A stretch of DNA of 41,533 nucleotides from a virus. The DNA is taken from positions 1 to 41,533 of the IMG/VR virus record IMGVR_UViG_3300033571_015762, one strand, 5' to 3'. The notes beneath the pieces are model-generated. The model ran no database searches, was not told the origin of the DNA, and was given only the letters and a program-made list of their open reading frames with translations. The position numbers and the translations under genes are program-made. Position 1 is the stretch's first letter. Every line of letters begins with the position of its first letter. Positions 14,939 to 17,179 of the stretch are shown piece after piece.

Positions 14939-15289
14939 ATGCGACAGGCAGATCTATTTGGTGGCGGTGTGGACGCTTACGGGCACGTCACACCAGCAAC
15001 AGGCAATCAGCGGCGGGACGAGGCGATCACACGGGTGGCCGCCCATGCGCCGGTCGGCTGGATTGAGGACGCAATCAACGCCATACGGCACGTCAGCCTG
15101 AGTCGGCAGACGCTGACTAGCGACGACGTATGGCCCTTGGTGGTGACGCCACCGGAGCCTCGGGCAATGGGCGTGGCGTTTGCCGAGGCAGCCAGGCGGA
15201 AGATTATCCGCAAGACGGACAGGGTGGTGAACAGCACGAGGCCGGAGTGCCACAGCAGGCCGGTTGCAGTTTGGGAGGTGATGGCGTGA
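14939..15289 (+). CDS. Conserved phage replication-region protein of unknown function
   Basis: The 116-residue product has a pattern I associate with a recurring phage protein: a WIEDAINAIRHVS helix, then LTSDDVWPLV, RAMGVAFAEAARRKII, and a final HSRPVAVWEVM. It is probably a small helical or winged-helix fold. GAGGAG precedes the ATG. It lies between the SSB gene and the DnaB N-domain gene and overlaps the latter by four bases, which suggests a replication role. No specific activity can be assigned. Confidence 0.65.
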   Translation: MRQADLFGGGVDAYGHVTPATGNQRRDEAITRVAAHAPVGWIEDAINAIRHVSLSRQTLTSDDVWPLVVTPPEPRAMGVAFAEAARRKIIRKTDRVVNSTRPECHSRPVAVWEVMA

Positions 15290-15534
15290 GTGAACAGGCA
15301 GAGCGGGTGGAGATGGGCGAGGTCGGGCAAATGCTGCTTCGGGGCCACGCCCCGGCCGAGTGGTCTGGTAGTGAGCGCAACCAGCAGATTGTGCAGGCGA
15401 TTAGGGAGGTGTTCGATCGGGGCCGGCCTGTGTGCCTGACCTCGGTGGCGGAACACCTGCGGAAGAAGAGTTTGCTGGAGGCGGTGGGGAGTTATGCGTA
15501 TTTGACGGAGTTATGGGAGTTGGCGGTGGAGTGA
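15286..15534 (+). CDS. Stand-alone DnaB N-terminal-domain-like protein
   Basis: The 82-residue product resembles only the N-terminal domain of DnaB helicase: an AIREVFDRGRPVCLTSVAEH segment, then LLEAVGSYAYLTELWE, matching the DnaB run of a helix, a Val-Asp-Leu-type turn, and the L-E-x-G-G-x-x-Y-L-x-x-L motif. The helicase motor domain is absent, and nothing downstream supplies it. The start is GTG overlapping the upstream TGA. In replicative helicases this domain contacts primase and drives ring assembly, so the protein may bind host DnaB or primase. A relic of a phage DnaB is the alternative. Confidence 0.7.
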   Translation: MSEQAERVEMGEVGQMLLRGHAPAEWSGSERNQQIVQAIREVFDRGRPVCLTSVAEHLRKKSLLEAVGSYAYLTELWELAVE

Positions 15535-15589: not shown

Positions 15590-15611
15590 CGTGACGCAAT
15601 CGTGACGCAAT
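15590..15611 (+). repeat. Two tandem 11-bp repeats (CGTGACGCAAT)
   Basis: CGTGACGCAAT occurs twice back to back (15590-15600 and 15601-15611), 13 bases before the ATG of the initiator-like gene. The spacing of one helical turn fits binding of a protein on one DNA face. It could be an operator for the initiator gene or an extra replication site. The same unit is not seen inside the gene, where different iterons occur. Confidence 0.65.
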
Positions 15612-15624
15612 TAGGACTAAAAGC

Positions 15625-16539
15625 ATGAAGCTTAACACCATCCAACACCCGAAAATCCTACGCCTCCGCCGGCGCTTATCCGTGCCCACCTGGGGCGCCG
15701 TTGGCGTGCTGGAAAGTCTCTGGCACCTGACCGCAACCCACGCCAAGGACGGCGCAATCGGTCGCATTTTCACCAATGAGGACATAGCCAACAGCATCGG
15801 CTGGGAGGGCGACCCAGACCACCTAATCGACGCCCTTGTGGCCTCCGGCTGGCTGGATGTTTGCGCTAGCAATCGTCTAATCGTGCATGACTGGAGCGAT
15901 CATTGCCCCGATTTTGTACGGGGAAATTTAGCCCGTCAGAAGGTAGATTTTGCCGTCGCAACCACAAACAGCGCATCAGCAACACCAGTAGCGTACTCCA
16001 GTACCGTACTACAGTACGCTACTCAAGTACCCTACTCCAGTACTGTACATGAGTCGCCGACTCCAAGACCAAGACCTAAACCAATACTAATACCAAGCCA
16101 AGACCAAGAAGAGAAAGACAGTGTCGAGTTGCCCGAAGCGGTCAACCCGCCCCCCGACGCCGTCGCCGAGTTTCCGTGCCAAGGTCTTCGGCAGGTCTGG
16201 CACCTGACCACGGGCCAAGTCGCCGACTGGCAGACCAGCTACCCGGGGCTCGATGTCGAGGCCGAGTGCCGAAAGGCCTTGGCGTGGGTGAAGGCCAACC
16301 CGCGGAAAAAGCGCACCCACGGCGGCATGCCGAAGTTCCTGGTCAACTGGTTCAACCGCGCCACCGACCGACCGGGCCCTGCCCCGCCCCGGTCCTTCTA
16401 CCAACCCCGCAGCGCCACCCCGTCGCCGACGGTGACCGAGCGCATGGGCGCCGACGTGGTCGGCATGCTGTTTGGCCAGCACCAGGCAGCGACCCAGCCG
16501 ATGACCCCGACGTTGGAACTAGAGGTGCGCCATGGGTGA
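15625..16539 (+). CDS. Replication initiator-like protein
   Basis: The 304-residue product has a winged-helix N-terminus (about 1-110: IQHPKILRLRRRLSVPTWGA, FTNEDIANSIGWEGD, LVASGWLDV). A low-complexity linker (about 115-165) is followed by a C-terminal helical domain (about 185-250: AECRKALAWVKANPRKKRTH, GMPKFLVNWFNRA) like the C-terminal region of DnaD/phage replication proteins. The linker DNA contains five 13-bp iterons. DNA-binding domain, iteron linker and helicase-recruiting domain give a layout like lambda O. It probably opens the phage origin and recruits host DnaB. The family link is by eye. Confidence 0.75.
   Translation: MKLNTIQHPKILRLRRRLSVPTWGAVGVLESLWHLTATHAKDGAIGRIFTNEDIANSIGWEGDPDHLIDALVASGWLDVCASNRLIVHDWSDHCPDFVRGNLARQKVDFAVATTNSASATPVAYSSTVLQYATQVPYSSTVHESPTPRPRPKPILIPSQDQEEKDSVELPEAVNPPPDAVAEFPCQGLRQVWHLTTGQVADWQTSYPGLDVEAECRKALAWVKANPRKKRTHGGMPKFLVNWFNRATDRPGPAPPRSFYQPRSATPSPTVTERMGADVVGMLFGQHQAATQPMTPTLELEVRHG
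15985..16049 (+). repeat. ori: Five tandem 13-bp iterons, probable replication origin
   Basis: Five contiguous 13-bp units start at 15985, 15998, 16011, 16024 and 16037: CCAGTAGCGTACT, CCAGTACCGTACT, ACAGTACGCTACT, CAAGTACCCTACT, CCAGTACTGTACA. Thirteen is not a multiple of three, so the repeat rotates through the reading frames; the conservation is at DNA level, not protein level. The array lies in the linker of the initiator-like gene and is followed by a purine-rich, A-rich stretch (about 16062-16122) that could melt. This matches the logic of the lambda origin inside gene O. Confidence 0.8.
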
Positions 16540-17179
16540 GATGCTTCCGGCCCGCTTGGCCTCGGTGCCCTGGGTGAATTTGTTCCAGGCCCTGTTCGGT
16601 GCCAACAGCGCCGACTGGGCAAAAACGCTGGCGACCTGGTCGTTGTTGTTCGACGCCGAGGGCCGAAGTAACTCCGAATTGGTCTCGGCTGTTCAGGCGA
16701 TTAGCCGGCACAGCCCGATTCCGCAATGGCCAACGCAGTTCCTCGACGCTTTGCGCAGCGAGCTCCGGCAGCAAGACCTATCCATGCGCCAGGCAACCGA
16801 GGCCCGACGCCTGGAGGAATCCGAGCGCCCACCCCGTTGCCAGACCTGCAGCGACTTCGGCTGGATCTGCGGCCTACCGCACCTCGAAACCGTCCGCGGC
16901 CCCGAGTGGCTGGAACCTCGATGGACCTGCGCGGTTACCTGCCAGTGCGAAGCCGGCTGCAGGGTTTTTGCTGGCTGGGGCCAGCGACAGCCCGACCCCA
17001 AGCCGGTGATGAGTATTTACACCTACACCAAGCAAAATCCGCACTACCAGGTGCAGATGGAGCTGCGCGCGCTGGAGGTCACAGCAAAGGTGCAGACCTA
17101 CGAGCAGGAGAAGGGCCCGGCCGAATGGCGGGCGACGGTCGAAGGCATCCTAAAACGCTACGGCAACCAGGCCAAATGA
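16532..17179 (+). CDS. Cys-rich replication-region protein, possible helicase loader or partner
   Basis: The 215-residue product has a helical N-terminal part (about 1-95) and a Cys-rich middle (CQTCSDFGWICG, then CAVTCQCEAGC) likely to bind zinc. The C-terminal end is helical. It overlaps the initiator-like gene by 8 bases and closes the replication block. This position is the one held by lambda P (helicase loader) after O, so a DnaB-loading or primosome role is reasonable, but there is no Walker motif and no recognised family. Confidence 0.65.
   Translation: MGEMLPARLASVPWVNLFQALFGANSADWAKTLATWSLLFDAEGRSNSELVSAVQAISRHSPIPQWPTQFLDALRSELRQQDLSMRQATEARRLEESERPPRCQTCSDFGWICGLPHLETVRGPEWLEPRWTCAVTCQCEAGCRVFAGWGQRQPDPKPVMSIYTYTKQNPHYQVQMELRALEVTAKVQTYEQEKGPAEWRATVEGILKRYGNQAK

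Follow-up and report, generated by a model that had tools for sequence, protein, structure and literature searches.

The replication initiator gene of this phage carries five tandem 13-bp repeats in the segment coding for its linker, and we read them, with a probability of about 0.85, as the initiator-binding (iteron) array of the phage replication origin. On their 3' side follows a tract of regularly spaced CC pairs, which we read from its sequence as a candidate strand-specific unwinding or loading element (Table 1). The window, meaning the whole stretch of DNA analysed, is the virus record IMGVR_UViG_3300033571_015762 of 41,533 bp. It looks complete, and an 87-bp direct repeat is found at both genome termini, so the assumption of a circle holds. 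The genome codes for an integrase, a terminase and a portal protein, and the initiator stands in a recombination/replication block together with Gam-like, RecA-like AAA and DUF669 genes. Relatives and other loci are given below as L numbers.

Table 1. Features in and around the initiator gene (positions in the window)
Feature	Position	Strand	Basis or remark
Two perfect 11-bp repeats, CGTGACGCAAT	15590..15611	+	TRF; immediately 5' of the gene start; may serve as an operator or as additional initiator sites
Phage replication initiator gene, 304 aa	15625..16539	+	PHROG matches, viral structure library
N-terminal winged-helix domain, aa 1-110, presumed iteron-binding	15625..15954	+	AlphaFold2 pLDDT about 97
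Linker-coding segment, aa 111-178, carries both DNA elements	15955..16158	+	pLDDT about 42-78
Iteron array, five 13-bp units	15985..16049	+	TRF, repeat search, dyad counts, recoding
Degenerate sixth iteron, AGTCGCCGACT	16052..16062	+	AGTCGCCTACT in L001 and L010
CC-repeat tract, candidate unwinding/strand-loading element	16063..16110	+	CC at 5-6-nt intervals on the coding strand
C-terminal folded domain, aa 179-248	16159..16368	+	pLDDT 88-96

The initiator matched the PHROG profile phrog_9474 ('replication initiation protein') over aa 4-94 with an E value of 5e-20, and phrog_13246 ('replisome organizer') with 2e-7, and not the O-like PHROGs; its matches in the viral structure library include 'Replisome organizer' and 'Primosomal protein 1'. 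The window's initiator gave no match in Pfam, DnaD/DnaB_2 included, and no significant match in the PDB sequence and fold searches. The PDB fold matches of the N-terminal domain were weak (none with E <= 0.001); winged-helix regulators are found among the best of them. In an AlphaFold2 model built with 39 relatives this domain consists of helices and a beta hairpin, and it is conserved in the 81 relatives described below. The linker is predicted to be disordered, with no secondary structure, and the C-terminal domain is probably the contact domain for the helicase loader. This role is supported by relative L122, which aligns along most of phrog_9474 and has a DnaD/DnaB_2 domain at the position of the C-terminal domain.

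A small ORF upstream, 15130-15534 (its start is likely nearer 15313), matches the N-terminal domain only of DnaB-type replicative helicases (Pfam PF00772, E 1.5e-7; NCBIfam phage_DnaB, 2e-5). It is not found at the same place in L001, whose sequence no longer follows that of the window 5' of about 15535. At the site of the upstream 11-bp repeats, L001 has three copies of GACGCAAT in 11-bp steps. The gene after the initiator, 16532-17179, codes for a Cys-rich, possibly zinc-binding protein of 215 aa with no family match, and it occupies the position of the helicase loader in other phages. Among the families searched, no complete loader or helicase gene was found adjoining the initiator.

A reading made earlier from the sequence only had claimed five contiguous 13-bp repeats in the initiator linker, and this was confirmed by TRF and by the repeat spacing. 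TRF reported 15985-16048 with a period of 13, 4.9 copies and a score of 79, the highest in the window, and the repeat search gave start-to-start distances of 13, 13, 13 and 13 bp. In register, the units are AGTAGCGTACTCC, AGTACCGTACTAC, AGTACGCTACTCA, AGTACCCTACTCC and AGTACTGTACATG, followed by a degenerate sixth, AGTCGCCGACTCC (16052-16064). The best description of the unit is a 4-3-4 dyad, AGTAnnnTACT, with 2 further bp, and the dyads start at 15987, 16000, 16013, 16026 and 16039. Four of them are perfect and one has a single mismatch; the exact AGTAnnnTACT occurs four times in the whole window, every time inside the array.

Several comparisons support that selection on the array acts on the DNA, not on the protein. 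The linker holds five dyads with at most one mismatch, a number reached by none of 10,000 codon shuffles (mean 0.22, maximum 3). In 300 synonymous recodings that kept the same protein, the null maximum was 20 for the tandem score, as compared to 32 in the window, and 3 for the dyads, as compared to five, and none of the 300 reached the array. The 13-nt period is not explained by a repeat in the protein, since the phase rotates and a protein repeat would span 13 residues. In L001, with a 96% identical protein, the six units have seven substitutions. The 30 bases of the spacers account for six of these, three of which change the amino acid sequence, and the 48 bases of the arms for one, which lies in the degenerate sixth unit. 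L010, with a 57% identical protein, has seven AGTAnnnTACT-like dyads (at most one mismatch) at mixed 12- and 13-bp spacing, which implies that the dyad persists when the reading register and the exact period are lost. Codon shuffles, synonymous recodings and the spared dyad arms thus agree with the earlier suggestion that the repeats are held by selection at the DNA level. The segment 15971-16130 contains 13 of the 43 differences to L001 and nine of the 13 nonsynonymous ones. It appears that the linker protein is under little constraint, and the DNA within it would therefore be free to be an origin.

For comparison, 81 non-redundant initiator sequences, the window included, were collected from viral contigs, bacterial MAGs (mainly Planctomycetes-type, also Acidobacteria and others) and cultured phages; they are related by descent, and counts among them are not independent events. 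In the search of genome contigs the single protein gave no match, and the alignment gave 18 loci. A tandem array beyond all 100 codon shuffles (p<=0.01) was found in 74 of the 81 linkers, and 57 of 81 arrays hold at p<=0.01 under synonymous recoding. With a common score limit of 16, arrays are present in 74 of 81 initiators as compared to 21 of the 391 other ORFs at these loci, and the period is not a multiple of 3 in 28 of the 74 initiators and in 2 of the 21 neighbouring-gene arrays. The units are usually specific to the lineage and lie in the same linker: CTAAGGAG-type units of 12/24 bp, GACAACGGCG of 10 bp, GCGCACGGCAA of 11 bp, and furthermore GTGCGCAC, TCCGGA and GCTATAGCACC of 13 bp. 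Many of the periods, at 10-13 or 20-24 bp, approximate one or two turns of the helix. A cultured relative, Paenibacillus phage Harrison, carries ACCGAACCTAACC in its initiator gene.

The linker DNA of related phages had been proposed as a check on the origin, and the array is indeed kept at the same place despite a complete change of sequence. Relatives with an intact initiator gene but no iterons had been named as grounds for refuting the origin, and this is partly the case: a few intact relatives among the 81 have no detectable array, which holds outright for L049 and weakly for L056, L081 and L097; their origin may be elsewhere or cryptic. A test for co-evolution of protein and iterons, comparing shared linker 7-mers with winged-helix identity, gave a weak correlation no better than that of control DNA and was set aside. 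It was also possible to observe an AT-rich non-coding array with the same AGTAnnnTACTnn dyad in L005 (482-518), L006, L007 and L008, followed by a promoter-like sequence. These contigs are unrelated, and we treat the triple dyad, AT-rich and non-coding as it is, as a coincidence or a different system.

The stretch after the repeats had been described as A/purine-rich. It is A-rich, but with 24 A, 15 C, 5 G and 4 T in 16063-16110 it is A/C-rich and not purine-rich, except for a short part after about 16104. The local AT maximum near the tract is among the top 1-4% of the genome, with 65% AT in 40 bp, a value exceeded by 0.7% of genome windows of that size. In the window the tract is short, with a chain of five steps (p=0.07 as compared to codon shuffles), and it is interrupted once, by TACT; the uninterrupted chains are nine steps in L001 and eight in L010. 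Examples of tracts directly 3' of arrays are CCTAACCTAACC, CCAAGCCAAGCC and GCCAGAGCCAGAG. Chains of at least five steps are found on the coding strand of 55 of the 81 linkers, on the other strand of 3 of 81, and in none of the 81 winged-helix segments. Chains average 6.2 steps, as compared to 2.6 in codon shuffles, and no other dinucleotide comes near CC in its excess. The consensus is CC-[A/T]-A-[A/G] (CCWAR) for the 5-mers and CC-A-[G/T]-A-G (within CCWNAG) for the 6-mers. Among the 54 members with a tract, the array lies 5' of it in 42 and 3' of it in 5.

The pentamers rotate through all frames, and the hexamers read PEPE in frame 0, TETE in frame 1 and SQSQ or SHSQ in frame 2. Under synonymous recoding 27 of 55 tracts were still significant at 0.05, which supports that the tract is constrained as DNA for the pentamers and the off-frame hexamers; the hexamers in the Pro frame (frame 0) lie outside the recoding test because each Pro codon supplies CC. 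A purely AT-rich unwinding element was rejected as the general identity of the tract, hexamer tracts such as GCCAGA being only one-third AT. A G-quadruplex on the opposite strand is conceivable, but L079, L035 and L062, whose period-5 tracts contain few CC pairs, speak against it. The CC tract may be a newly recognised part of initiator-gene origins. A literature search of limited coverage found no description of such a tract in fixed order with iterons, and its novelty is provisional.

To look for the tract independently of protein homology, all viral contigs were scanned for ACCWAACCWAACCWAACCWAACC. Beyond residue 100 of a same-strand ORF of at least 180 aa there were 26 hits (redundant copies included), 22 of which match the winged-helix profile; the other four (the L157 group and L200) are other PHROG replication initiators, and in L200 the tract has ATTCGGGCAA iterons of its own on the 5' side. 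The non-coding hits had no trend towards a 5' array, with arrays upstream of 6 of 48 and downstream of 5 of 47. A second scan, for CCWAG units, turned up nine hits in the middle of ORFs of 250 aa or more. The match to the profile is strong for five of them and weak for L337, L342 and L362; the ninth, L334, is unassigned. L337 and L362 are phrog_2447 initiators with O-like matches in the C-terminal half. A scan for the GCCAGA hexamer was rejected as a specificity test, the matches listed being, besides initiators, mostly short-ORF or microsatellite-like. Leaders of the type ACCAAACCAAACCAAACC were seen shortly 5' of an ATG in L118, L124, L135, L143, L145, L152, L153, L158, L165, L178, L199 and L209, outside initiator genes and with no adjoining iterons; they are possibly translation leaders.

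Arrays of this kind could have other causes than replication. That the repeats are neutral products of slippage, or protein-level repeats tolerated in a disordered linker, is very improbable. Linkers do tolerate repeats, several relatives have in-frame arrays of 6, 12 or 24 bp, and CC is read as Pro codons in 20 of the 27 members with hexamer tracts, resulting in PxPx linkers. However, synonymous recodings do not reproduce the arrays (57/81 at p<=0.01), substitutions spare the dyad arms and, in the spacers, change the protein, and the 12- and 13-bp spacings are mixed in L010. The same hexamer, GCCAGA, codes for PE in L081 and SQ in L098 and L105, and the order and strand are fixed, with such arrays rare in neighbouring genes. 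An autoregulatory operator, or an incompatibility-type titration site, would let the initiator repress or handcuff at the array while replication starts elsewhere. Plasmid iterons serve in both replication and repression or handcuffing, initiator binding to the array would fit all the comparative data, and there are repeats also 5' of the start codon (15590-15611). We nevertheless find this quite unlikely: a location about 360 bp into the coding sequence, where some 80 relatives have arrays too, is unusual for such a site, and the constant order of iterons and then tract matches origins, not operators.

For the CC tract, and not for the iterons, it is also conceivable that the function is carried by the RNA, which might load Rho, for example, or be coupled to transcription in some other way, and so halt or prime transcription at the origin. 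Rho-loading sites are C-rich, G-poor RNA with regularly spaced C pairs, which the tract resembles, and its preference for the coding strand (55/81 as compared to 3/81) is what an RNA element would give, although the strand data cannot separate this role from one in the origin since the orientations of gene and origin are locked together. The tract lies inside a translated gene, where ribosomes shield the RNA from Rho, and many hexamer tracts are not G-poor (GCCAGAG); a role at the RNA level is unlikely.

An origin within the initiator gene is the reading that we prefer, and we infer the following course of events. The winged-helix domain would bind the units cooperatively, probably as a dimer since each unit is a 4-3-4 dyad, and wrap or strain the DNA. 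The strain would open the adjoining CC tract (16063-16110), and one of its strands would be captured by the initiator or a loader; initiators at origins usually capture one strand (PMC5043065, PMC7466680). The C-terminal domain would then recruit the helicase loader and the helicase. Cumulative GC skew of the circle, which the sequence-only reading had named as a check, has no turn at 16 kb (detrended minimum at 10.9 kb, maximum at 23.4 kb) and gives no support for an origin there, the skew being confounded by gene direction.

If the rule of a winged helix, a lineage-specific dyad array, a coding-strand CC tract and a C-terminal domain holds, the initiator gene would be sufficient to locate the origin in many uncultured phages. 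The sequences of the initiator sites turn over, and their position and order persist. Tentatively, and as a possibility more than an expectation, we suggest that the origins used by the winged-helix initiators of tailed phages generally contain the CCWAR/CCWNAG tract 3' of the iterons as an element, and that it is a strand-specific single-strand code of the DnaA-trio kind, read by the initiator or the loader and common to initiator families not obviously related in sequence. If the tract is such a strand-loading code, the choice and holding of a strand by initiators would be open to simple recoding experiments.

Iterons within the initiator gene are already known from lambda and SPP1, and the array fits the layout of lambda O/ori and of SPP1 gene 38/oriL. 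The lambda ori lies inside gene O (PMC6022878, PMC7466680, PMC5043065), where the iterons bind O dimers and a strongly strand-asymmetric tract on their 3' side melts (PMC7466680, PMC5043065). The idea of a lambda-like layout with no sequence relation is well founded: in both phages iterons are placed mid-gene in the initiator coding sequence with a strand-asymmetric tract on the 3' side, as annotated for lambda (PMC5043065), and no lambdoid record is among the 33 phage matches of the initiator. Lambda differs in having four 18-bp iterons at 20-24-bp spacing and a purine/A-rich tract; the window has 11-bp dyads, five to six of them, spaced by 13 bp, and a tract of CC/A repeats. There is no direct match between lambda and the window initiator, but two tract-bearing initiators of another family match 'O-like' PHROGs in their C-terminal half. 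In the Bacillus phage SPP1, oriL lies inside gene 38, and the replisome organizer gp38 binds its direct repeats (PMC6316719). Compared by description, the two systems share direct repeats in the initiator's own gene and, for SPP1, an adjoining AT-rich unwinding element (PMC6316719); SPP1 differs in that it has another origin, oriR, and a loader and helicase of its own.

The rep gene of Lactococcus phage TP901-1 codes for an experimentally named replication protein of about 270 aa, and has a mid-gene TTTTCCAGATGTGG-like repeated unit and an A/C-rich tract. It differs from the window in that only two repeat copies are clear, and that the protein is annotated as DnaD-like and is not among the matches of the window protein. 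In the DnaA-trio and in the unwinding elements of plasmid Rep systems, a short motif repeated on one strand beside the double-strand initiator sites is captured single-stranded (PMC10797057). Their units are 3-nt trios or 13-mers, as compared to the 5-6-nt CC units here, for which a similar capture is conceivable, and what they have in common with the CC tract is a short motif, repeated on one strand, that adjoins the initiator sites.
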